Under the pieces are notes generated by a model. That model saw only the letters and a program-made list of their open reading frames with translations. It was not told the origin of the DNA and made no database searches. Positions 1 to 36,715 of a stretch of DNA of 36,715 nt are shown piece after piece. Numbering within the stretch: position 1 is the stretch's first letter; each line of letters opens with the position of its first letter. Source of the stretch: Acidobacteriota bacterium (GTDB lineage: Bacteria; Acidobacteriota; UBA4820; DSQY01); the NCBI GenBank assembly GCA_021787565.1, contig JAJYLT010000035.1, forward strand, positions 1-36,715. The letters are read 5' to 3'. Both the position numbers and the translations under genes were made by a program.

Positions 1-410
1 TCGCATTGCTGCGACGCAGTTACGTTCGGTTTCGGGGCCGGAGAGCGTATGCCCCGGAGGGGACTTTCACCCCTCTGACAACGCGCCTTCCCGGGCGCAC
101 TAGCGGCCGCCCGCTGGGCGGCCGAACCACCACTGTGTCACCACCCGCGCGTTCGGCCGGCCAGCGGCCGGCCGCTACGGAGAATGAGAAGCTTCGAAGC
201 GGCGGGCGGGGGCGCCCGCCCCACACAAGGACACCGCGGGGGCGCTCACTCCACAACCCCGGCACATGCAGGCGGCAGGCGTCCTCAAGCGGCGCCCCGG
301 TGAAACGGCCGTTCCCATCGGCCGATGCTTCCCGCACCTTCCCTTTCGCCCCCCACAATCCATCATCCACATCGTCTATCATCTATCCTCCTTCATCTCT
401 CATCTCTGTT
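1..410. repeat. Gene-free left end with REP-like hairpins
   Basis: I see no gene here. It holds three hairpins of the families found elsewhere in the window. At 104-124 stem CGGCCGCCC pairs with GGGCGGCCG around loop GCT. At 154-174 a 9-bp stem CGGCCGGCC pairs with GGCCGGCCG around AGC and is followed by CTAC at 175-178, which is a GTAG foot on the other strand. At 201-220 stem GGCGGGCG pairs with CGCCCGCC and is followed by CCAC, a GTGG foot on the other strand. Positions 377-407 are a pyrimidine-rich stretch with a degenerate 7-bp period (TATCATC, TATCCTC, CTTCATC, TCTCATC) just before the first gene. Confidence 0.7.
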
Positions 411-6855: not shown

Positions 6856-7419
6856 GCGTACCCTCCCCCCACCGTCAATGATCCGACCTCAATGGTGAGT
6901 CTAACCTATCATCAATTATGAATCGAGTCGACGGGCTGCCGTGGGAACATGGCCATGCCTGGCCTCTGCTACACCGTACGGGCGGCCGTCTCTGGCCGCC
7001 CGCCTTCCATTTCCCATCCCGGGAGGGCACGGTGGCCCTCCCCGTGGGGCGGGCGCCCTCGCCCGCCGCGGAGGACAGGGGGGATCGCGGCCGGGGGCGG
7101 CCGCGCCACAAGGCCGAGGGCCGCCGCGCCACAAGGCCGGGAGAGCCTGTATTGCCCCATCCCCAGTGTACTTGTGGGGCGGGCGCCCCCGCCCGCCGGC
7201 GGAGACAAGGGGGATCGCGGCCGGGGGCGGCCGCGCCACAGGGCCGAGGGCCGCCGCGCCACAGGGCCGAGGGAGCCTGTATCGCCCCATCCCCAGTGTA
7301 CTTGTGGGGCGGGCGCCCCCGCCCGCCGGCGGGGGACATGGGGGATCACGGCCGAGGGCGGCCGCGCCACAAGGCCGGGGGCGGCCGCGCCACAAGGCCG
7401 AAGGCACGGAGACCCTCGC
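6856..7419. repeat. Gene-free stretch with three 130-bp tandem repeats
   Basis: No gene seen. Units begin at 7044, 7174 and 7304 (exactly 130 bases apart), the last ending near 7405. Each starts with a GTGG-foot hairpin (stem GGCGGGCG with CGCCCGCC). It then carries a second hairpin in the other orientation (stem CGCGGCCG with CGGCCGCG, followed by CCAC), and from the second unit on is preceded by CCCCATCCCCAGTGTACTT. The units differ at a few bases, so they are not a recent exact copy. 6856-7043 shows no clear structure. Confidence 0.85.
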
Positions 7420-18000: not shown

Positions 18001-18017
18001 GGAGAGAGGAGGAAAAA

Positions 18018-18066
18018 GTGAGGAGTGAGGAGTGAGGAGTGAGGAGTGAGGAGTGAGGAGTGAGGA
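18018..18066. repeat. Heptanucleotide tandem repeat GTGAGGA x7
   Basis: Seven perfect 7-bp units with no interruption, immediately upstream of the glycosyltransferase promoter. The same unit occurs twice at 9181-9194. Perfect arrays of this length are prone to slippage. Confidence 0.95.
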
Positions 18067-18500
18067 GGAAGGGAATTGAATGCGTGCCTCTGCAGCGGCC
18101 GACGGACGGGCGCCCCGGTGCGGCTTCTCCAGCCGGTCATCCTGGCAAGCGAAGCGCGTCCAGGATCGCTTCGCCCTCGGAGAAGGGGCAGGATTCCGGA
18201 CTCCGACTCGCCTTCTCCGGCCGTCATCCTGGCAAGCGAAGCGCGTCCAGGATCGCTTCGCCTTCGGGTGAAGGGCAGGATTCCGGACTCCGACTCGCCT
18301 TCTCCGGCTGTCATCCTGGCAAGCGAAGCGCGTCCAGGATCGCTTCGCCTTCGGGTGAAGGGCAGGATTCCGGACTCCCTTCGGTCGCCGGAATGACGGT
18401 GAAGGGAGCGCTCGCCGGAATGACGGTAATCATAGGAACGGGAGAGACAGGCGCCTCGCCTGTCGAGGTCCGTTTGATTGAAGATTGAAGATTGAAGGAT
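18067..18500. repeat. Gene-free stretch with 87-bp tandem repeats (family C) and GATTGAA x3
   Basis: No gene seen. Units start at 18136, 18223 and 18310 (87 bases apart). Each has a C1 inverted repeat (ATCCTGG and CCAGGAT arms around AAGCGAAGCG) followed by GGCAGGATTCCGGACTCC; the last runs into a C2 inverted repeat (ATTCCGG with CCGGAAT, about 18368-18396). GATTGAA is repeated three times at 18476-18496. Confidence 0.85.
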
Positions 18501-22789: not shown

Positions 22790-23205
22790 TCGGCCGACGG
22801 GAGTCGGCCGCTACAAAGGTACGCCCCCGTTCTTCCGTAGCGGCCGGCGGAAGCCGGCCGACGGCCGCCCACCGGGCGGCCGCTACAAAGGCACGCCCCC
22901 GTTCTTCCGTACGTAGCGGCCGGCGGAAGCCGGCCGACGGCCGCCCACCGGGCGGCCGCTACAAAGGCACGCCCTACGATCTTCCGTAGCGGCCGGCGGA
23001 AGCCGGCCGACGGCCGCCCACCGGGCGGCCGCTACAAAGGCACGCCCCCGTTCTTCCGTAGCGGCCGCATCCTTGCGGCCGATTCCCCGGTTCGACCCTT
23101 CGGCCGACGGGCGTCGGCCGCTACACCCGCCCCTTGCCGCCGGGCGCATTCCCCCCGTGGCGCGGGCGCCCTCGCCCGCGTTCGGCCGGCCATGCCGGCC
23201 GCCAA
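22790..23205. repeat. REP cluster: three tandem two-arm palindromes plus single hairpins
   Basis: No gene seen. Full 50-bp two-arm units lie at 22837-22886, 22913-22962 and 22986-23035, a tandem array with about 72-76-bp period and the spacer AAAGGCACGCC between them. A single hairpin at 22792-22816 has stem CGGCCGAC with GTCGGCCG. At 23058 GTAG precedes stem CGGCCGCA with TGCGGCCG. A GTGG-foot hairpin follows at about 23158-23180 and another single hairpin near 23182-23202. See the findings for structure. Confidence 0.9.
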
Positions 23206-24723: not shown

Positions 24724-25887
24724 TCATTCACCTCTCATCCTCTTGCTCAGCCCGAGCCGGAGCCGCTCAAGAACCCAAAGGGCCATCCGCCCAGCCTGTC
24801 CCACCCACCGGTAGCCATAGAGGGCCACGGCGGGCCATTTTTCCTTGACGGGATACCGCCACCGCATGTAGGAGACCGATGGAAAGGCGATGCGCCACGC
24901 CGCCTTCAGCGCCCCCAGCCAACCCTCGTGGCGCAACCGGCCCACGAGCTGCTCGACGGCCGCGCCGCTGGGAGAAAGGGAAAGTTCCGGCTCCTGTCCG
25001 CACGCCTCCAGCGCGCTCCTCACCTCCGGCGGAAGGTCCAGCCCCAGGCAGGATTCCAGCGAGCCGAATCCCTGAAGCACCGCGCCCGCCGCGCCCGCCG
25101 CGCCCGCCAGATCCACTAGGCGGGGCCAGCGAAAGACGCTCTCCTCTTTTTCGAGAATCATCTTCAGATCGTAGAGGACCATGGCCCTCGGCGGCTCACC
25201 GGCGTGCTGCAGCCACATGTGGCCGCACAAATAGGCCACTTGGGCCTCCGGCGCCAGCCCCTCCACCCGGCGCCCTTGCCACGTATAAGGGCGGCGATCC
25301 TCGATCAGCCGCACCCCTCCGCCCGTCCACCGGCTGTCCCGCGGCGAGACGAGGAGGGCGCCGTGGATCTCGACCATCAGCCCCGTGACCGGCGCCCTCA
25401 GCGCGGGCAAGTGCTGAGCGAGCGACCAGTGGTCTTGAAGGCCCTCCTCGGGCCGGAACCCGGCGCTCTCCAACAGCGCGAAGGCCCGCTCGGACTCCGC
25501 TGTGGAGGGAAAGAGCACGTCCAGGTCCGAGATGGGCCTCAAGTGCGGCTCGGGGTAGTACCGCAACGCCAGGTCGGCCCCTTTGAGAAGCACCGGGGTG
25601 AGCCCCGCGGCGAGCCACCGATCCAGGACCCCTCCGATCTCCTCCCAGGCCACCAGCCATCCGGCCAAGTACCGGATGGTACGCTCTCGCAGGCGCTCCC
25701 GCTGTTCCGGCGGCAGCTCCTTCAGCACTCCCGCCGTTTGCCAGGCGTGGTAGGCCAGGGGAAACAGACCGTTGGCCGAGAGGGCATCCACCAGCGCCTC
25801 GGTCCTTTCAGCCCCGGCCGCCCCCGCCAGAATCGACGCCGGCCGCTCGATGGCCTCGACTAGATCTTCCCACCGCTCACATTCCAT
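24724..25887 (-). CDS. NTP_transf_5 family nucleotidyltransferase-like protein
   Basis: 387 residues, no membrane segment. The family block LKGADLALRYYPEPHLRPISDLDVLF spans about 101-126: a GxD-like loop and the SDLD pair (Asp121, Asp123) that would bind metal in a nucleotidyltransferase fold. A predicted helical C-terminal half follows. Members are often encoded in exosortase or exopolysaccharide clusters near asparagine-synthase-like genes, but their reaction is not established. ATG 25887 is chosen because the open frame upstream is translated repeat DNA; the ribosome-binding site is poor (GGCGGGG directly before ATG). It lies upstream of the barrel gene, with a 71-bp gap to that gene's promoter, and could help build or modify the same polymer (inference). 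Confidence 0.75.
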   Translation of the reverse strand: MECERWEDLVEAIERPASILAGAAGAERTEALVDALSANGLFPLAYHAWQTAGVLKELPPEQRERLRERTIRYLAGWLVAWEEIGGVLDRWLAAGLTPVLLKGADLALRYYPEPHLRPISDLDVLFPSTAESERAFALLESAGFRPEEGLQDHWSLAQHLPALRAPVTGLMVEIHGALLVSPRDSRWTGGGVRLIEDRRPYTWQGRRVEGLAPEAQVAYLCGHMWLQHAGEPPRAMVLYDLKMILEKEESVFRWPRLVDLAGAAGAAGAVLQGFGSLESCLGLDLPPEVRSALEACGQEPELSLSPSGAAVEQLVGRLRHEGWLGALKAAWRIAFPSVSYMRWRYPVKEKWPAVALYGYRWVGQAGRMALWVLERLRLGLSKRMRGE

Positions 25888-26440
25888 CCCCGCCGCCGAT
25901 CCCCCGTTTCCCGCCCGTTCGCCCGGCGGAAGCCGGCCGACGGAAGCCGGCCGACGGCCGCCCACCGGGCGGCCCCACCAACGGTCACCCCACCATCCTT
26001 CCGTAGCGGCCGGCGGAAGCCGGCCGACGGCCGCCCATCGGGCGGCCGCTACAAAGGCACGCCCCGTGGCGCTGGCGCCCTCGCCCGCGTTCGGCCGATC
26101 TGAGTCTGCCCTGAGGAACCCCTTGGCGGGCTCCTGGCGAATGGGATCGGCCCCACCAACGGTCACCCCGCGATCCTTCCGTAGCGGCCGGCGGAAGCCG
26201 GCCGACGGCCGCCCACCGGGCGGCCGCTACAGTCGCAGGCGGGGGCGCCTGCGCCACAGACCTTCGAAGCGGCGGGCGGGGGTGCCCGCCCCACAATGAC
26301 CGCCCCCATTTGCCGTCATTCCGGCGACCGAAGGGAGTCCGGAATCGTCCCCTTCACCGGCAAACCAACGGATCCTGGACGCGCTTCGCTTGCCAGGATG
26401 ACCGCACGAAAGAGCGTTCGCGGTCGGCCGGCCTCTTCCC
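25888..26440. repeat. Gene-free stretch: REP cluster with long-loop variant and family C
   Basis: No gene seen. A footless two-arm unit lies at about 25925-25975, ending in CCAC instead of CTAC. Full two-arm units lie at 26003-26052 and 26181-26230. 26092-26152 is a long-loop variant (CGGCCGATC, 44-base loop, GATCGGCC). At 26233-26252 stem CGCAGGCG pairs with CGCCTGCG followed by CCAC: a compensated variant of family B. A further GTGG-foot hairpin ends at about 26293. C2 (26316-26346) and C1 (26371-26402) inverted repeats follow. Confidence 0.85.
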
Positions 26441-28396
26441 CTACGGCCGCGCCCACGCGGTGACGAGCGCCTGCCTCAACTCCTCGAAGCTCCACCCCCG
26501 GTCCCGGGCGCGCCAGTACTCGCCCTTCACGGCCGCCTGGGCGCCGGGAAACCTCTCCAGCACGGCCTCAGCCCGGCTACCGAGCGCATCCAGGAGCCGC
26601 CCGTCCACGGTCCCCTCCCTGAGCGCCTCGAACTGTACGGTATCCAGCCGGCCGCCCTTCCCGTCCGGGTCCACGAGCGCGTCGTAGCGGATCATCGGTC
26701 CCGCCCAGTCGTCGGCCTCCCGATTCCCCGGCGGGGCGTAGCAGAAGACCCACAGCCCGCCCACGCCCGGGGCCCTGGCGAGCAGGCCAGCCCAGACGCG
26801 GTTATAGAAGGGGTCCTCCCGAAGCCCCTGGACATAGACCCACCGTTGGGCCGACGGGAGACCCGGCACCTGCCGGACGAGGTTGGGCGGCACCGCCACC
26901 CCATCCAGAACGGCCGCCAGAGAGAGCGAATTGGGCCACGCCAGCGCGGCCCAGGGCTTGAGCCCCCTGGCCTCCTGCTCCAACGCCCGCTTCCTGGCCC
27001 CCTCGATGGCCTCCACCGTGGCCGGTTCGTCGGCGACGTAGGCCCACCCCTTCTCGCCCGCGGGAATCGCACCGGGATGAAGAGCCCACCGGCCATCCAG
27101 GCCCGCCCGCTCCGCCTCCTCCTGGAAGCGCCGCCACCCTGCCGTATCCCGCGCCGGGCAGGTGACCGCCGTGAGACCGTGGCCGGCTAGGTCGCGGAGG
27201 TCCGGTCCCCAGTGCGACTCCTTGGGATCGAGATAGTAGGCTCCCACCAGGCGGGAGGGCGGAGGCAACGCCGGGGCAACCTTCACCTTCCAGGGGATCT
27301 CTCCCAGAACATGGCCGCCGCGCTCGATGCGGATCGGGACCAACAGGGTACCCGGCTTAGCTCCTGCCCGCACCCTCCCCTTAACGACGAACCTCTGCGG
27401 CATGCCGTCGGGCTGGAATCCCTCCTTCGGTTCGGGAAAGAGCCGCTCCCCCACGAGCACGTCGCCCATCCCAGCCGCCACGCGCACGGGAAAGAGGGCG
27501 TCGATCTCCTCGCGCCGCCCCGCCTGCCACCAGAAATCCAGGCGGAAGAGCCCTAGTCGCTCCAACCCCGGCCCCACGGAGACGGTAACCTTCCCCTCTC
27601 CCGGCGGCACCTCCAGCCAGGCCGTCACCTCCTGCCCCGCCGGCGCCGCCGCCACGGCCTCCTTGGCTCCCTCTCCGGCCGGGATAAAGGGCCGGACGTC
27701 GTACGATGCCAGCGCCCGAGGCCGGGTGGGAGCCGGCGGAAAGAGCATCGGAACGGCGAAGGCTAGGCCATCCCCGCCCCAGCGCCACGAGGCCGGGCCG
27801 GGAGAGCCATGGGCCAGCGACTCCTGTGCCACGCCGTCCGCCCGCACCTTCCGGCCCCGCAGGACCTCCAGCCGGAACCCTCCCGCCACTTCGGGCACCG
27901 AGGCCCACGGGATGAGCCACTCCCCGGCCCACGTCCGCCCAAAGACCGACTCGGCGCCCTGCCATTCGAGAGTGGGGCCCTCCACCGGCCGGCCGTCCTC
28001 CCCCAAGACCGTCCGCATCCCCCCGGGAACCATCATGAAGAGCCGCGTCCCGGCACCCTCGCCCAGACGCACCGCCACCCAGTCGCCCAGCACCCACTCT
28101 TCCGGCGCGCCCCAAGGCAGCGGCCGCAGAAGCCCACGCCCCCCGTCCGGTTCCGTCGAGAGAACCGCCACGTAGAGCCCCTCGCGCGTCCCCAATGCGT
28201 AGGCCCGCACCGAGCCGTCCGGCCGCCCCGTCACCGCGTCGCTCATGGGCAGAGGCCGCGCCCCCAGGAGGAAGGCCTCCCGAGGATCGCCGTCCACCCG
28301 CACCGGGTAAGGCGAAACCGGCAGCCGCCCGAGCCCCGCCGCCCCAACAGCCAGCCCCCAGACCAGCGCCGCCACCATCATCCACAGCCGCTTCAA
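26441..28396 (-). CDS. Predicted exported glycoside-hydrolase-like protein (DUF4091-like)
   Basis: 651 residues from a TTG start at 28396, chosen because GGGGGAGG lies seven bases upstream and the resulting N-terminus (KRLWMMVAALVWGLAVGAAG) is a complete signal peptide; ATG 28381 or 28378 would lose its basic residues. Residues about 30-230 look like a CBM9/DOMON-type beta-sandwich (for example REGLYVAVLSTEPDG, DWVAVRLGEG, EWLIPWASVP). A second beta-rich domain follows, then from about 380 a barrel-like domain with DLAGHGLTAVTCPA and AYVADEP. The DEP acid pair is characteristic of DUF4091/DUF6067 glycosidase-like proteins. Likely role: processing of a surface polysaccharide in the periplasm or outside. 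The stop TAG lies in GTAG but no clear hairpin follows. Confidence 0.65.
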   Translation of the reverse strand: MKRLWMMVAALVWGLAVGAAGLGRLPVSPYPVRVDGDPREAFLLGARPLPMSDAVTGRPDGSVRAYALGTREGLYVAVLSTEPDGGRGLLRPLPWGAPEEWVLGDWVAVRLGEGAGTRLFMMVPGGMRTVLGEDGRPVEGPTLEWQGAESVFGRTWAGEWLIPWASVPEVAGGFRLEVLRGRKVRADGVAQESLAHGSPGPASWRWGGDGLAFAVPMLFPPAPTRPRALASYDVRPFIPAGEGAKEAVAAAPAGQEVTAWLEVPPGEGKVTVSVGPGLERLGLFRLDFWWQAGRREEIDALFPVRVAAGMGDVLVGERLFPEPKEGFQPDGMPQRFVVKGRVRAGAKPGTLLVPIRIERGGHVLGEIPWKVKVAPALPPPSRLVGAYYLDPKESHWGPDLRDLAGHGLTAVTCPARDTAGWRRFQEEAERAGLDGRWALHPGAIPAGEKGWAYVADEPATVEAIEGARKRALEQEARGLKPWAALAWPNSLSLAAVLDGVAVPPNLVRQVPGLPSAQRWVYVQGLREDPFYNRVWAGLLARAPGVGGLWVFCYAPPGNREADDWAGPMIRYDALVDPDGKGGRLDTVQFEALREGTVDGRLLDALGSRAEAVLERFPGAQAAVKGEYWRARDRGWSFEELRQALVTAWARP

Positions 28397-28404
28397 GAAA
28401 GCGC

Positions 28405-28800
28405 CTCCCCCTTCTCCCGTAGCGGCCGGCGGAAGCCGGCCGACGGCCGCCCACCGGGCGGCCGCTACAAAGGCACCCATCCCCGCACCGCCGTACCATT
28501 CCCCCCGTGGCGCGGGCGCCCCGCCCGCGTTCGGCCGCCCACCGGGCGGCCGCTACAACGGCACCCATCCCCGCACCGCCGTACCATTTCCCGCGGTGGC
28601 GCGGGCGCCCCCGCCCGCGTTCGGCCGCCCACCGGGCGGCCGCTACAAAGGCACCCATCCCCGCACCGCCGGCCCCTTCCCCCCCGTGGCGCGGGCGCCC
28701 CGCCCGCGCTCGGCCGCCCACCGGGCGGCCCCACCAACGGCCTCCTCCACTCCGTAGCGGCCGGCGGAAGCCGGCCGACGGCCGCCCAGCGGGCGGCCGC
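28405..28800. repeat. REP cluster upstream of the exported hydrolase gene and downstream of the RAYT
   Basis: No gene seen. Full two-arm units lie at 28419-28468 and 28754-28804 (the latter with one extra C before CTAC). Between them are three alternating blocks of GTGG-foot hairpin (family B) followed by single A-type arms CGGCCGCCC with GGGCGGCCG, two ending in CTAC and one in CCAC. The unit at 28419 begins eight bases from the ribosome-binding site of the hydrolase gene, so any promoter for that gene lies in or beyond the repeats. Confidence 0.9.
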
Positions 28801-29286
28801 CTACAGCAATTCAATGTGGGCGCGCGTAAAGGGGTATTCCCTCCAGTCCCTCACGAGACCCTTTCGCACGGGATTACCCACAATATACGCCGCGTACTCC
28901 CGGCCTTCCCGGCTCCGAATCCAATGGTCGTAAAAGGTCCGCTGCCAGAAAGGGCCACCCTTTTTTCTGGCCAGCCGCCTTGTCCATAGGCCCTTCCAGG
29001 TCCCGACATACTCCCATACGGCCTTGCCGCAACCGTCCAGGGACAATAACAAATGCACGTGGTCCGGCATGACGCAGACCACGATAACCTTCGCGTGACC
29101 ATCTCGTGAACCGTCACCGAGGTCATCATCGAGACAACAGGCGATTACCTTCGGGTCCGCCCGAATCAATGCACGTCCTTGCGTACACCAGGTCACGGCC
29201 ACAAGGCCAGGACCGCGATTGTCGCCGGGCAGGCGCACCGCATGGCTTCTAGACCATGTCTTCGGCAATACAGGTTGTGCCGACAT
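28801..29286 (-). CDS. REP-associated tyrosine transposase (RAYT, TnpA_REP family)
   Basis: 161 residues. ATG 29286 is preceded by GGGAGGGG; a longer open frame upstream is translated repeat DNA. Y1 HUH nuclease signatures are intact: the HUH pair in MPDHVHLLLSL (His76, His78), FWQRTFYDHWIR (113-124), and the tyrosine motif EYAAYIVGNPVRKGLV with Tyr134 as predicted nucleophile. The last two motifs are typical of RAYTs rather than of classical IS200/IS605 transposases. RAYTs cut and join single-stranded REP hairpins having GTAG at their 5-prime foot. This gene is flanked by such palindromes (28754-28804 and 29348-29397), and its own TAG stop (28801-28803) is the foot of the downstream one. No terminal inverted repeats or second transposase subunit are seen, so it is a single-copy domesticated type. 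Confidence 0.92.
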   Translation of the reverse strand: MSAQPVLPKTWSRSHAVRLPGDNRGPGLVAVTWCTQGRALIRADPKVIACCLDDDLGDGSRDGHAKVIVVCVMPDHVHLLLSLDGCGKAVWEYVGTWKGLWTRRLARKKGGPFWQRTFYDHWIRSREGREYAAYIVGNPVRKGLVRDWREYPFTRAHIELL

Positions 29287-29329
29287 ATTCCCCTCCCGCC
29301 ACAGGTTCCTCCTGCCGGCCCCACCAACG

Positions 29330-29642
29330 GGCGCCTCACCATCTTCCGTAGCGGCCGGCGGAAGCCGGCCGACGGCCGCCCAGCGGGCGGCCGCTACAAA
29401 GGCACCCACCCCCGTACCGCCAGCCCATTCCCCCCGTGCCGCGGGCGCCCCGCCCGCGTTCGGCCGCCCACCGGGCGGCCGCTACAACGGGCACCCCACC
29501 CTCTTCCGTAGCGGCCGGCGGAAGCCGGCCGACGGCCGCCCAGCGGGCGGCCGCTACAAAGGCACCCATCGCCGTACCGCCGGCCCATTCCCCCCCGTGG
29601 CGCGGGCGCCCCCGCCCGCGTTCGGCCGGCAGGAGCCGGCCG
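29330..29642. repeat. REP cluster upstream of the RAYT
   Basis: No gene seen. Two-arm units at 29348-29397 and 29508-29557, with a GTGG-foot hairpin and a single A arm between them. A composite at about 29596-29646 joins a GTGG-foot hairpin, TT, then stem CGGCCGGC with GCCGGCCG (loop AGGA) and CTAC. The same composite ends the WecA-type gene at 31574-31624. Confidence 0.9.
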
Positions 29643-29870
29643 CTACAGGAGCGAGGAGAACTCTTCCGTGCTCACGTTGGCGTCGCGAAGGATAGCTCTC
29701 AGAATGGCCGGGTGGATGATCTTGCCCGCATGAACGGGCAAGGTCACGCGCACCCCCTCCCCGTTCTTCAGAATAACGTGGCTTCCGCTCTGCCGAACCT
29801 CGGCAAAGCCCCTCTTCTTGAGGACCGCCAAGACTTCCCTGGCGGTCACCCTCGGGAGCTTGGGGGTCAT
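29643..29870 (-). CDS. HicA family mRNA interferase toxin
   Basis: 75 residues, normal for the family. Double-stranded-RNA-binding-like fold with the catalytic histidine in QSGSHVIL (His31) and the C-terminal pattern VPVHAGK-like (LPVHAGKIIHP). HicA cleaves mRNA and is held inactive by HicB. ATG 29870 overlaps the stop of hicB by four bases (ATGA), so the order is hicB-hicA, the reverse of the most common arrangement. The TAG stop is the GTAG foot of a REP hairpin. Confidence 0.9.
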   Translation of the reverse strand: MTPKLPRVTAREVLAVLKKRGFAEVRQSGSHVILKNGEGVRVTLPVHAGKIIHPAILRAILRDANVSTEEFSSLL

Positions 29871-30091
29871 ACGGCAATACTGAGCGAGGTCAACGAGACC
29901 GACTCGGCCTGAGGGATCTCTTCTCCCTGCGCCAGCCTGTCCTGCACGTGCAGCCTCACCGCGTCGCCAATGGCCTCCATCGCCGCTTCATAGGTCTCAC
30001 CCTGAGCATAACAGCCCTGCAATTCGGAACAAAAGGCCGCATAGCCCTCGGCATGCTTCTCAACCCGAATCGTGAACGAAAACCGTCTCAT
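29867..30091 (-). CDS. HicB family antitoxin
   Basis: 74 residues with the degenerate RNase-H-like HicB fold: the N-terminal strand pair around EKHAEGYAAFCSELQGCYAQ and the helix TYEAAMEAIGDAVRLHVQD. No added DNA-binding domain is visible at the C-terminus, so autoregulation may depend on the complex. GGGAG precedes ATG 30091. It is first in a two-gene operon with hicA. Confidence 0.88.
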   Translation of the reverse strand: MRRFSFTIRVEKHAEGYAAFCSELQGCYAQGETYEAAMEAIGDAVRLHVQDRLAQGEEIPQAESVSLTSLSIAV

Positions 30092-30110
30092 CCCGTGCGC
30101 TCCCGGCTAC

Positions 30111-30139
30111 AATCTATTTCGCAGGTCTCATGCGGTCAA
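30111..30139 (-). promoter_or_regulatory. Sigma-70-like promoter of hicBA
   Basis: On the minus strand TTGACC (30139-30134), 17 bases, TAGATT (30116-30111), 19 bases upstream of hicB. Confidence 0.6.
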
Positions 30140-30154
30140 ACTTCGCCCTCCGCC

Positions 30155-30464
30155 CCCGTGGCGCGGGCGCCCCCGCCCGCGTTCGGCCGCTACAAAGGCC
30201 ACCCCACCATCTTCCACAGCGGCCGCATCCTTGCGGCCGATTCCCCGTTTCCCACCCATTCGGCCGGCAGGAGCCGGCCGTTACAAAGGCACGCCCGCGA
30301 TTCTTCCGTAGCGGCCGGCGGTAGCCGGCCGACGGCCGCCCACCAGGCGGCCGCTACAAAGGCACCCATCCGCAATCGGAAGCGCACCCTTGGCCAAACA
30401 GACGATGCCTCCCGGCCCCGTGGGTGTTGCCCACCTCGCCAGCGTATGGAAGGGCCAGAAGCCG
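30155..30464. repeat. REP cluster between hicBA and the nucleotidyltransferase pair
   Basis: No gene seen. A GTGG-foot hairpin (about 30158-30181) leads into an A-type remnant with CTAC. Single hairpins follow at about 30221-30240 (stem CGGCCGCA, TGCGGCCG) and 30261-30284 (stem CGGCCGGC, GCCGGCCG). The two-arm unit at 30308-30357 has loop changes (GGTA, and one mismatch in arm 2). 30370-30464 shows nothing clear. Confidence 0.85.
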
Positions 30465-30662
30465 CTAACCCACGCCCCACACGCGCCTTACGGGCCGCCC
30501 GGCCGCCTGCCGCACTTCATTTGCCATTTTTTGAAGTTGGATAAGTCGTTCGATCTTCTTTTCGATGGGTTCTCGTGCCAACAATAACCTTCGTTCAGTC
30601 TTGCCCTGAAGACTCTTCTTTGTCAAAATTTCCAGTGACTTCTCTCGGCCGCTCATCCGCAT
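30465..30662 (-). CDS. Small helical protein paired with the nucleotidyltransferase
   Basis: 65 residues, basic and predicted helical (for example IEKKIERLIQLQKMANEVRQ), ending in an Arg/Pro/Gly tail. ATG 30662 overlaps the TGA of the upstream gene by one base (TGATG), and GGAGG four bases before it lies inside that gene, so the two are translationally coupled. I do not recognise the family. The arrangement suggests a partner or antitoxin for the nucleotidyltransferase-like protein, in reversed order compared with AbiEi/AbiEii. The region is less GC-rich than its surroundings. Confidence 0.6.
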   Translation of the reverse strand: MRMSGREKSLEILTKKSLQGKTERRLLLAREPIEKKIERLIQLQKMANEVRQAAGRPVRRVWGVG

Positions 30663-31186
30663 CAAACCTCCAGACCGATGAGTTGTTTCCACTTCGCTTC
30701 AAGGTGATACTCTTTGATGAGGGTATCCACCAAATCGTAGTCCACCTCAACACCTTGTTCTTTAACCAGTTGCGCTCTGGCCTTGTCCTTCGCCTGGCAT
30801 CTATCTGCCATCAGAGCCAAGAGGTATTCTACCCTCATTACCCTAGTCGGAGTGGCGCCAAATGCTTTGGGCACCGCAGTTCTGACGGCATCATCGAGCA
30901 ACGGTTTGCCCCCCACGAGGAATTGAACTGGAATCGTTTCGATAATCACATGTTCCTTCTCCTCGTTGTATCCCAACTCGCGCAGGTAGTTGTAGAGTGG
31001 CGTCAGCGTAACCACCGCCTTGCTCATCTCCTCCTGAGGCAATAGCACTACGATGTCCAAGTCCAGCGTTTCAAAGGGCTCTATGTAAAAAAGGGCTGCG
31101 ATTGCGCCGCCAATGGCGTAGTCCTCAATGATGTGGTCTTCGACCATCTTGTTGATGACAGCCAGGACCTTTTCCAGCATGCGCAC
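30662..31186 (-). CDS. Nucleotidyltransferase-fold protein (AbiEii/MNT-like)
   Basis: 174 residues from GTG 31186; ATG 31180 is equally possible and neither has a good ribosome-binding site. The N-terminal block AIGGAIAALFYIEPFETLDLDIVV (24-47) has the glycine pair (Gly26, Gly27) and the Asp42/Asp44 pair of the DNA-polymerase-beta nucleotidyltransferase superfamily, as in AbiEii or MntA-type toxins and in unassigned housekeeping relatives. The rest is helical with PKAFGATPTRVMRVEYLLALMADR, also typical of these proteins. It is AT-richer than its neighbours and bracketed by REP clusters, so it was probably acquired. A toxin role is inference. Confidence 0.7.
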   Translation of the reverse strand: MRMLEKVLAVINKMVEDHIIEDYAIGGAIAALFYIEPFETLDLDIVVLLPQEEMSKAVVTLTPLYNYLRELGYNEEKEHVIIETIPVQFLVGGKPLLDDAVRTAVPKAFGATPTRVMRVEYLLALMADRCQAKDKARAQLVKEQGVEVDYDLVDTLIKEYHLEAKWKQLIGLEV

Positions 31187-31620
31187 CAGAGCGTATCCGC
31201 CTCTACGAGAATCACTTGAACCGCTTTCGTCGGCAGGCGCCGCTCTTGACCTCCTATGTACGTTTTAGTGTAGGTCACCAGCAAGATTTCTTCAACAGAA
31301 CTTCATTCTCCCGAATTCCGAATTCCGAATTTCCCCCGCCCGCGTTCCGGCCGCCCACCGGGCGGCCGCTACAAAGGCCACCCCACCATCTTCCGCAGCG
31401 GCCGCATCCTTGCGGCCGATTCACCGTTTCCCACCTATTCGGCCGGCAGGAGCCGGCCGTTACAAAGGCACGCCCGCGATTCTTCCGTAGCGGCCGGCGG
31501 AAGCCGGCCGACGGCCGCCCGGCCGACGGCCGCTACAAAGGCACCCATCCCCGCACCGCCGGCCCATTCCCCCCGTGGCGCGGGCGCCCCCGCCCGCGTT
31601 CGGCCGGCAGGAGCCGGCCG
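31187..31620. repeat. Gene-free stretch: promoter, heptamer repeat and REP cluster
   Basis: No gene seen. 31246-31251 is AGGAGG on the minus strand without a nearby ATG. GAATTCC is repeated at 31313-31334 (third unit with one extra T). REP material follows: an A arm at about 31347-31372, single hairpins at about 31398-31417 and 31439-31461, and a two-arm unit at 31487-31536 whose second arm has been altered to CGGCCG-loop-CGGCCG. The composite 31574-31624 ends in the stop of the next gene. Confidence 0.85.
31267..31295 (-). promoter_or_regulatory. Sigma-70-like promoter of the nucleotidyltransferase pair
   Basis: On the minus strand TTGAAG (31295-31290), 17 bases, TACACT (31272-31267). A GAATTCC heptamer array begins 18 bases upstream of the -35, the same spacing as the heptamer array at the glycosyltransferase promoter. 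Confidence 0.55.
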
Positions 31621-32739
31621 CTACGGTTTCGGGTCGGGGTTGTCGCGGCCGTTGTGAAAGAGGCGGATCCCCCCGAACTGCCGCACCACGATGAACCCGC
31701 AGATGCCCACGAGCATGAGCCCGAAAGAAACGCGGTCGTTGTCAACCAGGACCGCCGCGAGGGCGAAGAGCCCCAACACCGCCGACAGGGCGTAGAGCAA
31801 CAGCACGGTTTTCCTGTAGGTGTATCCCATGTCCAGGAGGACGTGGTGGATGTGGGCCTTGTCCGCCTTGAACATGGCGCGAAGGGCCGAGGGCCTGAAC
31901 TCCTTCTCCACCAGCACCTTCTTGAGAAGTCTCCGCCCCATGGCGTAGAGCGTGTCGAACACCGGCACCCCCACGATGAGAATGGGGATCAAGAGCGCCA
32001 GGGCCGTGGGCCTCTTCGCGGAGCCCACCACCGAAAGCACGGCCAGCAGGAACCCCACCATCATGCTCCCGCAATCCCCCAAGAAGATGCGCGCCGGGTG
32101 GCGGTTGTAACGGAGGAACCCCAGGAGAGCCCCGGCCAGCACGGCCGTCACGAGAACGATGCGGTAGCGCTCGCTGCCCAGCAGCGCCACGGCAAAGAGC
32201 GTCATGCTCGAGATGAAGGCCACCCCGCCCGCCAGGCCGTCCAGCCCGTCGATCAGGTTGAACGCGTTCGTTACGCCCACGATCCACAGCGCCGTCAGCG
32301 GAACCCACAGCCAGCCCAGGCTCACGACCCCGTCGAAGGGGATGCCCAACTGCTCGATCCGGACCCCTCCATAGACCATCACGATGCCCGCCGCCAAGAA
32401 CTGGACGGCGAACTTGACCCCGACGCTGGCGTGCCAGAGGTCATCGTAGAGCCCCAGGAGAAACACCAGGGCCGTGCCCACCGCCAACGAAACCCAGAAC
32501 GGCAGGTTCTGATCGAAGCTCACCCTCAGGTGCGGCACCAACACCAAGGCCAACAGCCCCACGAGCAGGAACGTCAGGCCGAGGGCCACCCCACCCAGCC
32601 TCGGGGTGGCCTGCTCGTGCACCTTCCGCCCCCCCGGCTGATCCATCGCACCGCAACGCTCCGCCAGACGGATCACCGGCGGGGTCAACAGCAACGTCCC
32701 GATAGCCGCAATCAACAGCGCCGCGAAGGGCTCAAACAT
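31621..32739 (-). CDS. WecA/TagO-type polyprenyl-phosphate N-acetylhexosamine-1-phosphate transferase
   Basis: 372 residues, about eleven membrane helices. All family motifs are present: RKVHE with following TPRLGG (38-50), YDD (98-100, Mg-binding), NAFNLIDGLDGLAGG (158-172), GDCGS (221-225) and HIHH (296-299). The HIHH block and the lack of the MraY-specific features place it with WecA/TagO. It transfers a UDP-N-acetylhexosamine phosphate to undecaprenyl phosphate on the cytoplasmic face, the first step for an O-antigen-like or exopolysaccharide chain, and so could prime the polymer exported by the Wza/Wzc set. The own ribosome-binding site is weak; an overlapping 13-residue leader frame precedes it. 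The stop TAG is the GTAG foot of a REP hairpin. Confidence 0.9.
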   Translation of the reverse strand: MFEPFAALLIAAIGTLLLTPPVIRLAERCGAMDQPGGRKVHEQATPRLGGVALGLTFLLVGLLALVLVPHLRVSFDQNLPFWVSLAVGTALVFLLGLYDDLWHASVGVKFAVQFLAAGIVMVYGGVRIEQLGIPFDGVVSLGWLWVPLTALWIVGVTNAFNLIDGLDGLAGGVAFISSMTLFAVALLGSERYRIVLVTAVLAGALLGFLRYNRHPARIFLGDCGSMMVGFLLAVLSVVGSAKRPTALALLIPILIVGVPVFDTLYAMGRRLLKKVLVEKEFRPSALRAMFKADKAHIHHVLLDMGYTYRKTVLLLYALSAVLGLFALAAVLVDNDRVSFGLMLVGICGFIVVRQFGGIRLFHNGRDNPDPKP

Positions 32740-32789: not shown

Positions 32790-33041
32790 CAGCCGCCGCA
32801 CCCACCGTAGCGGCCGGCGGAAGCCGGCCGACGGCCGCCCAGCGGGCGGCCGCTACAAAGGCACCCATCCCCGCACCGCCGGCCCATTCCCCCCGTGGCG
32901 CGGGCGCCCCCGCCCGCGGTTTTTCCCCAAAATGGCGGGCGAGGCGCCCGCCCCACGAGTGAAGGGCCTCACCCGCGTTCGGCCGATCTGAGTCTGCCCT
33001 GAGGAGTCCCTTCGCGGGCTCCTAGCGAACGGGATCGGCCG
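32790..33041. repeat. REP cluster with long-loop variant upstream of the WecA-type gene
   Basis: No gene seen. Two-arm unit at 32807-32856, GTGG-foot hairpin at about 32896-32919, a degenerate GGCGGGCG arm with CGCCCGCC followed by CCAC at about 32935-32956, and a long-loop palindrome at 32980-33041 (CGGCCGATC, 44-base loop, GATCGGCCG) followed by CTAC 33042-33045. Confidence 0.85.
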
Positions 33042-33629: not shown

Positions 33630-34091
33630 GGTCCTAACCTCCCTGGCCGAGTATTCTGAAGCTAAGGCTCAGCCAACCGAGAATCAAGTAGCGGCCGCAT
33701 CCCTGCGGCCGATCCCCCGCGTTCCACCCATTCGGCCGCCCACCGGGCGGCCGCTACACCTGCGACCCCGCCCGAGACGAAGCCACCCCCCGATCTTCCG
33801 TAGCGGCCGGCCGAAGCCGGCCGACGGCCGCCCACCGGGCGGCCGCTACACCAGCGACCCCGCCCGAGGCGAAGCCACCCCCCGGGTCTTCCGTAGCGGC
33901 CGGCCAAAGCCGGCCGACGGCCGCCCAGCGGGCGGCCGCTACACCAGCGACCCCGGCCGAGGCGAAGCCACCCCCCGGTCTTCCGTAGCGGCCGGCCAAA
34001 GCCGGCCGACGGCCGCCCACCGGGCGGCCGCTACAAAGGCCCGCCCCTCGCCGTCTTTTTCGTCCGTCGTCCGTCGTCCGTCGTCTATTCT
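33630..34091. repeat. Gene-free stretch: REP array and heptamer CCGTCGT
   Basis: No gene seen. A single hairpin at about 33689-33711 and an A arm at about 33735-33758 are followed by three two-arm units at 33800-33849, 33893-33942 and 33985-34034. These use loops CGAA or CAAA in arm 1 and a different spacer (ACCAGCGACCCCG, GCCGAGGCGAAGCCACC) from the other clusters, so this array amplified locally. CCGTCGT is repeated three times plus a partial at 34061-34084, directly before the end of the ATPase gene. Confidence 0.88.
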
Positions 34092-35267: not shown

Positions 35268-35836
35268 GCGGATAATATGCAACTGGATTGCAAGATTATC
35301 AAGGCCCCTCTCGGCCTGCCGCCTAAACAGCCCGCGGCGAAGGCACCCCCCATTCTTCCGTAGCGGCCGGCGGAAGCCGGCCGACGGCCGCCCACCGGGC
35401 GGCCGCTACAAAGGCAGGCCCGCGATTCTTCCGTAGCGGCCGGCGGAAGCCGGCCGACGGCCGCCCACCGGGCGGCCGCTACAAAGGCACCCATCCCCGC
35501 ACCGCCGTACCATGCCCCCGTGGCGCGGGCGCCCCCGCCCGCGTTCCGGCCGCCCACCGGGCGGCCCCACCAACGGCCTCCCCCACTCCGTAGCGGCCGG
35601 CGGAAGCCGGCCGACGGCCGCCCACCGGGCGGCCGCTACAAAGGCACCCATCCCCGCACCGCCGGCCCATTCCCCCCGTGGCCCGGGCGCCCCCGCCCGC
35701 GTTCGGCCGCCCACCGGGCGGCCGCTACAAAGGCCACCCCGCGCATCTTCCGTACCGGCCGCATCCTTGCGGCCGATCCCGCGTGTTCCGCCCCTTCGGC
35801 CGGCAGGAGCCGGCCGCTACACGGGCACCTGGCTCT
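35268..35836. repeat. Gene-free stretch: dense REP cluster
   Basis: No gene seen. Two-arm units at 35360-35409, 35433-35482 and 35590-35639. GTGG-foot hairpins at about 35519-35542 and 35678-35701, each followed by an A arm. Single hairpins at about 35757-35776 and 35797-35816, the last followed by CTAC 35817-35820. The spacer AAAGGCACCCATCCCCGC recurs after many units. Confidence 0.88.
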
Positions 35837-36409: not shown

Positions 36410-36715
36410 CCCCCGCACCGCCGGCCCATTCCCCCCGTGGCCCGGGCGCCCACGCCCGCGTTCGGCCGCCCGCCGGGCGGCCCCGCCAACAGCCTCCCCC
36501 ACTCCGTAGCGGCCGGCGGAAGCCGGCCGACGGCCGCCCACCGGGCGGCCGCTACAAAGGCACCCACCCCCCACACCGCCGGCCCGTTCCCCCCGTGGCG
36601 CGGGCGCCCCCGCCCGCGTTCGGCCGCCCACCGGGCGGCCCCACCAACGGCCTCCCCCACTCCGTAGCGGCCGGCGGAAGCCGGCCGACGGCCGCCCACC
36701 GGGCGGCCGCTACAA
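36410..36715. repeat. REP cluster at the right end
   Basis: No gene seen. Two-arm units at 36506-36555 and 36664-36713, each preceded by a GTGG-foot hairpin and an A arm that ends in CCCAC or CCCGC rather than CTAC. The composite of about 158 bases is repeated, so this array probably continues beyond the window. Confidence 0.88.

Follow-up and report, generated by a model that had tools for sequence, protein, structure and literature searches.

The window, that is the whole stretch of 36,715 nucleotides analysed here, lies on contig C24 of genome G000 and carries a RAYT/TnpAREP gene at 28801-29286 (reverse strand; ATG start, TAG stop). The 161-residue product has an intact HUH motif (His76 and His78 in PDHVHLLL) and catalytic tyrosine (Tyr134 in EYAAYIVGNPVRKGL), as the sequence-only reading had described, together with W114-Q115, D120, H121 and R124. 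Residues H76, H78, W114, D120, R124 and Y134 were invariant across 22 homologues, and Q115 nearly so. The protein matched Pfam Y1_Tnp with 25.2 bits (cut-off 23) and NCBIfam REP_Tyr_transpos (NF047646) with 78.2 bits, slightly below the cut-off of 80. Its nearest solved sequence was E. coli TnpAREP (4er8), and 4er8, which is TnpAREP with a REP hairpin, was also the top PDB fold match of the AlphaFold model (mean pLDDT 88; Foldseek E 1.5e-7), so that the modelled protein has the predicted fold of TnpAREP. In E. coli TnpAREP, GTAG is contacted by W94, Q95, E100, H101 and R104 (PMC6006769); these residues aligned with W114, Q115, D120, H121 and R124, all being kept in the window RAYT except for the change of E100 to Asp.

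The TAG stop codon of the gene is supplied by the inner GTAG of the adjoining repeat. We considered truncation of the RAYT by this repeat and rejected it, because in the L008 orthologue the stop is at the corresponding codon and is TGA. Third-position G+C was 0.66 in the RAYT gene, 0.81-0.91 in several neighbour genes and 0.51 in one neighbour; the low value relative to most of the compared neighbours would fit a recent arrival. A search of plasmid records gave weak partial matches only.

Two-arm GTAG units surround the RAYT gene

The repeat that surrounds the RAYT gene is a 50-bp unit, GTAG-CGGCCGGC-GGAA-GCCGGCCG-A-CGGCCGCC-CACC-GGGCGGCCG-CTAC, in which two arms (A1 and A2) stand head to head, so that each strand presents a GTAG foot and a perfect hairpin. 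Folding of the unit gave two hairpins (z = -5.2). The arm catalogue has 19 regular A1/A2 pairs, every one with a 1-nt spacer and in a single orientation, whereas the distance from one unit to the next varies. The 12-mer GTAGCGGCCGGC, allowing up to 2 mismatches, was found 77 times against 12.6 expected, which is far above chance. By the nomenclature of PMC3733652 the unit is an HH heterodimer, equivalent to a REPIN, and an inverted REP pair with outer GTAG was indeed the repeated unit in 19/19 A1/A2 pairs.

The repeats nearest to the gene had been read as full two-arm units with GTAG feet. This is exact for the upstream unit at 29348-29397, which is perfect and has GTAG on both strands, and needs correction for the unit directly downstream (28754-28804), whose inner foot, GTAG-G-CGGCCGCC, has one extra base. 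Proceeding along the window, we found an array of three A1/A2 units (22837, 22913, 22986) with older-type arms at 22791, 23058 and 23101 (22791-23124 in all), and two A1/A2 units at 26003-26230 (26003-26052, 26181-26230). The stretch 28419-28734 holds an A1/A2 unit (28419-28468) and three hybrid dimers of a GTGG arm and an A2 arm (28507-28556, 28596-28646, 28686-28734) with a period of ~90 bp. Beyond the RAYT gene lie an A2 arm, an A1/A2 unit (29508-29557) and a hybrid GTGG/A1 dimer (29597-29646) within 29461-29646, an A1/A2 unit at 30308-30357, and an A2 arm, an A-type unit (31487-31536) and a hybrid GTGG/A1 dimer (31575-31624) within 31348-31624. An A1/A2 unit at 32807-32856 is followed by an array at 33688-34034 (three A1/A2 units at 33800, 33893 and 33985, with two arms before them, one of the older type at 33688 and one A2 at 33733), by three A1/A2 units (35360, 35433, 35590) with single arms and a hybrid GTGG/A2 dimer at 35360-35820, and, where the contig ends, by two A1/A2 units with a hybrid dimer (36506-36713).

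The 5' ends of two open frames on the reverse strand, 24724-26166 and 26441-28480, consist of translated repeats (RWAAVGRLPPAAT), so gene callers are expected to place their starts too far upstream. Elsewhere in the window (18017-18378), seven tandem copies of the 7-bp AGTGAGG adjoin an 87-bp tandem repeat.

RAYT and GTAG hairpins are paired in other genomes

Only two homologues with more than 50% identity to the window RAYT were found, L008 (62%) and one on contig C196 of genome G008 (57%). In both cases GTAGCGGCC hairpins adjoin the RAYT gene, two-armed as in the window and with changed loops, and the catalytic residues are kept; loss of the HUH or Tyr residues in orthologues, which would have spoken against the sequence-only reading, was thus not seen in either. 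A RAYT gene with REPs of its own class around it, in its orthologues too, has the layout of a REPtron, and this supports the earlier view that this RAYT is nested between its probable targets. In a tree of RAYTs that leaves the group-3 reference sequences outside, the window RAYT, L008 and the G008 protein formed one clade (SH-aLRT 100), nested in a larger clade most members of which are flanked by GTAG hairpins.

An unbiased scan of the 700 bp around each of 118 RAYT-like genes for hairpin feet returned GTAG as the commonest foot (27 loci), followed by GTGG (8) and others (at most 5 each). Across phyla, RAYT distance was correlated with REP foot and stem distance (Mantel r 0.52-0.57, permutation p 5e-5), a co-variation in which co-adaptation and shared descent are not separated. 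Of the 149 genomes compared within the phylum, 3 had the two-arm unit, among them both that have this RAYT (Fisher p = 2.7e-4; p = 0.014 after removal of the window's own genome). The expected co-occurrence of RAYT and unit holds with an exception, genome G004, which has five two-arm units and in which a search for an intact RAYT orthologue detected none. A second exception is the RAYT L132 (31% identity), which lies outside the window RAYT clade and also adjoins GTAGCGGCC hairpins, so that this stem base is not exclusive to the clade. In G087, a genome of another family, ~26 single GTAGCGGCC arms, mostly GTAGCGGCCGGGCTTGCCCGGCCG, are spread over many contigs (e.g. C81:74-97), with L132 beside one of them; G087 is a dispersed counterpart to the local repeat cluster of G000.

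RAYT-like genes were found in polysaccharide loci on C24, C33, G001 C154, G002 C200, G004 C111 and G008 C196, and outside such loci on C48, C49 and G002 C166. We had asked from this listing whether RAYTs in general favour polysaccharide loci; several cases speak for such a preference and the latter three against it, and it was not retained.

Two congeners carry different RAYTs and REPs in one gene cluster

Contig C154 of G001, a genome of the same genus, is syntenic with the window, and for most genes the protein identity is 64-94%. The distance between a glycosyltransferase gene (31621-32739) and the 679-aa ORF (26441-28480) is ~3.2 kb in the window and ~400 bp in G001. The variable block (28481-31620) comprises the RAYT, HicA/HicB, an ORF at 30662-31186 and REPs, and has one conserved gene on either side; the HicA/HicB toxin-antitoxin pair lies at 29643-30091 on the reverse strand, inside the block absent from G001. 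At another place in the syntenic sugar-polymer cluster, G001 has another RAYT (36% identity), located between wza-like and Wzz-kinase genes, and five GTAGGGGAGGG hairpins (C-type REPs), all within ~3.3 kb of that RAYT. The C-type hairpin class is absent from G000. Each congener thus has its own RAYT, with 20 two-arm A units and no C-type REPs in G000, and 0 and 5, respectively, in G001.

Equal abundance of the repeats in a relative without this RAYT would have counted against the pairing, and for the dimers the comparison of the two congeners went the other way (0 in G001, 20 in G000). For single arms the outcome was mixed: a few GTAGCGGCC arms of the older loop type survive in G001 in the absence of this RAYT, with no two-arm dimers among them. 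The aligned site of G001 lacks the unit at 32807-32856, and the adjacent GTGG hairpin (32895-32918) is common to both genomes; since the alignment is imperfect there, we call the G001 counterpart a near-empty rather than a clean site. In G004 the same polysaccharide cluster contains a frame-broken RAYT of another clade (L185:2440-2850, on G004:C111), placed between orthologues of the 679-aa gene and an NTP_transf_5 gene. At the level of sequence comparison, these results show that RAYT and REP type are inherited together, that the dimer is what is conserved as a unit, and that the congeners differ in presence and absence.

Local duplication contributes to the arrays

The exact A1 arm has 23 copies, every one of them at 22.8-36.7 kb of the window contig, in ~14 kb around the RAYT; none was found in the other 3.43 Mb of G000 or in 148 relatives. 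The G000 assembly (3.47 Mb) is fragmented, so copies elsewhere in this genome may be missing, and the relatives compared are fragmented assemblies as well. Genome-wide spread, which is typical of a REPtron without defining it, is therefore not seen for A1, and the A1/A2 family is apparently a local, young RAYT-REP pair.

Such a distribution invites the explanation that tandem and segmental duplication with gene conversion multiplied the repeats, the RAYT being an intact neighbour and not their present driver. The arrays have periods of 73, 90-92 and 157-160 bp with 92-100% matches, 19/19 A1/A2 dimers share one orientation within 14 kb, and the exact A1 arm is restricted to this region; confinement, tandem periods and shared orientation could mostly reflect local duplication, and the tandem arrays mean that ordinary duplication contributes too. 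As the sole source of the repeats, however, duplication has to account for dimers at ~10 separate sites in differing intergenic contexts, for the near-empty site in G001, and for two orthologues in other genomes that have arms of this class on their flanks. We regard it as a serious but rather unlikely alternative to copying by the RAYT.

A second repeat class with a GTGG foot

The sequence-only reading had also made the RAYT the driver of all clusters in the window. This part was not supported for a second class of repeats, the GTGG-foot hairpin GTGG-[CG]GCGGGCG-CCC-CGCCCGC, of which 17 copies are interleaved with the A units. In favour of a common driver, 17 of the 49 GTGG hairpins of G000 are on the window contig, and 7 hybrid head-to-head dimers in the window join a GTGG arm to an A-type arm with 2-3-nt spacers. 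Against a common driver, the 49 copies extend over 13 contigs, and on contig C33 of G000 they lie around and inside a different Y1 gene. Relatives have them as well (16 in G001, 5 in G002, 8 in G004, 5 in G005 and 6 in G007), and no orthologue of the window RAYT above 50% identity was found in these five genomes; in G001 the GTGG hairpin is shared where the A dimer is missing. The presence of the GTGG class in relatives makes it older than the A dimers. These data render it improbable that the window RAYT drives the GTGG hairpins too; the RAYT does not account for these interleaved repeats.

The GTGG hairpins are possibly served by the C33 Y1 gene, a tentative link. A firm assignment was rejected, as G001, G002, G004, G005 and G007 all hold GTGG copies, and a search of them for close homologues of the C33 gene found none. 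The open frame of the C33 transposase (L166:3335-4249) does not end before the GTGG hairpins but reads across them and across a 23-bp repeat, GGCCGAGGGCGGCCGCGCCACAA, so that the repeats code for its C-terminal tail. The 23-bp repeat also occurs in G004:C111 and in the window, where it forms a tandem block with GTGG hairpins at 7044-7405; possibly it is a third REP-like family.

Assignment of the window contig and of the transposase

As exact A1 arms occur on one contig of a metagenome-type assembly (23/23), we suspected that the contig might be mis-binned, which would make their confinement uninformative on the genome. This was rejected on synteny and shared junctions, and is very improbable: the whole window is syntenic with G001 C154, contig C62 of G000 has a cluster of a sister unit type whose spacer is 28-29 nt, likewise among polysaccharide genes, and contigs C24, C60 and C62 have a common mobile-element start exactly at a unit foot. 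The tetranucleotide profile of the window contig fits G000 too, though composition alone discriminated poorly. Judged from these sequence features, the contig belongs to G000. The contig start (window 1-102, reverse strand) falls inside the 5' part of the mobile element, which begins exactly after the CTA of the unit foot; the same junction was seen at C62:71110 and C60:73524, all three copies thus being at REP feet. By its start (GTGCGCCC...) this element resembles a group II intron; a search of Rfam gave no match.

An ordinary IS200/IS605 insertion sequence, which shares the Y1/HUH fold and the Pfam family and is expected in several near-identical copies with a Y..NQ motif, is hardly credible here, given YIVGNP in place of that motif, 17 bits with the IS200 NCBIfam model (cut-off 55), flanking GTAG REPs, one copy with no close duplicate in G000, and no identical copies with defined IS ends seen in related strains. 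The earlier description of the RAYT as single-copy applies to its clade, of which G000 has one member, and not to the Y1_Tnp family, which has seven matches in the genome.

Discussion

We conclude, with a probability of roughly 0.8, that the locus is a REPtron, composed of a RAYT (an HUH single-strand endonuclease) and short hairpin repeats that it maintains. The gene is an intact, domesticated-type transposase amid hairpin repeats that it very probably copies. Taking E. coli TnpAREP as a model (PMC8266576), the RAYT would bind its GTAG hairpin where the DNA is single-stranded, replication forks being the probable place; Tyr134, which the H76/H78 metal site would hold, would cut next to the hairpin, and the cut strand would be rejoined elsewhere. 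New copies would then multiply further as tandem arrays through ordinary duplication. Binding, cutting and copying are what we infer from this analogy.

Relative to the E. coli REPtron (group 2, PDB 4er8), the locus shares the HUH-Tyr fold, largely conserved GTAG contacts and flanking inverted REPs, but the window RAYT has ~20-22% identity and no long C-terminal tail, its hairpins have no bulge, and its copies are not dispersed genome-wide. By its motifs the RAYT would stand near subclass 2.5 (group 3) and subclass 2.7, the reference sequences of those groups being outside the tree. Asp at the E100 position, as in the window RAYT, is a feature of both subclasses. With the group 3/subclass 2.5 RAYTs of Pseudomonas and Stenotrophomonas (PMC6006769, PMC8266576) it shares WQ, this Asp, DH.H, YI..NP, a length near 150-160 aa, short perfect-palindrome GTAG hairpins and head-to-head dimers; it differs in its phylum, in having its repeats at one locus, and in DHVH and YIVGNP, each one residue off DH[LF]H and YI[VI]ANP. 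Like REPINs and BIMEs (PMC3116915, PMC3733652), the units are inverted REP pairs with outer GTAG termini, a fixed spacer, tandem clusters and hybrid dimers of different families, whereas the 1-nt spacer, local distribution and mixed GTAG/GTGG pairs set them apart. The pairing of RAYT and REP is itself already known, and the window family is apparently a further, local and young REPtron/REPIN case; what is unusual is that the repeats are locally confined, that GTAG and GTGG arms form hybrid dimers, and that there is a swap between the congeners.

More speculatively, and with appreciable doubt, RAYT-driven copying of dimers may favour DNA close to the gene, and young REPtrons would then spread locally before they spread genome-wide; each species of this family would have its own recently settled REPtron in a polysaccharide cluster, with the A repeats (G000) and the C repeats (G001) as two snapshots of that stage. 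The same cluster with different RAYTs and matching different REPs in two congeners forms a natural experiment that ties REP type to RAYT, and the congener pair catches a REP family with its copies still confined to one region. These findings take RAYT-REP pairing, with good support, from the proteobacterial models into a phylum for which, as far as our literature search went, few such pairs have been described.
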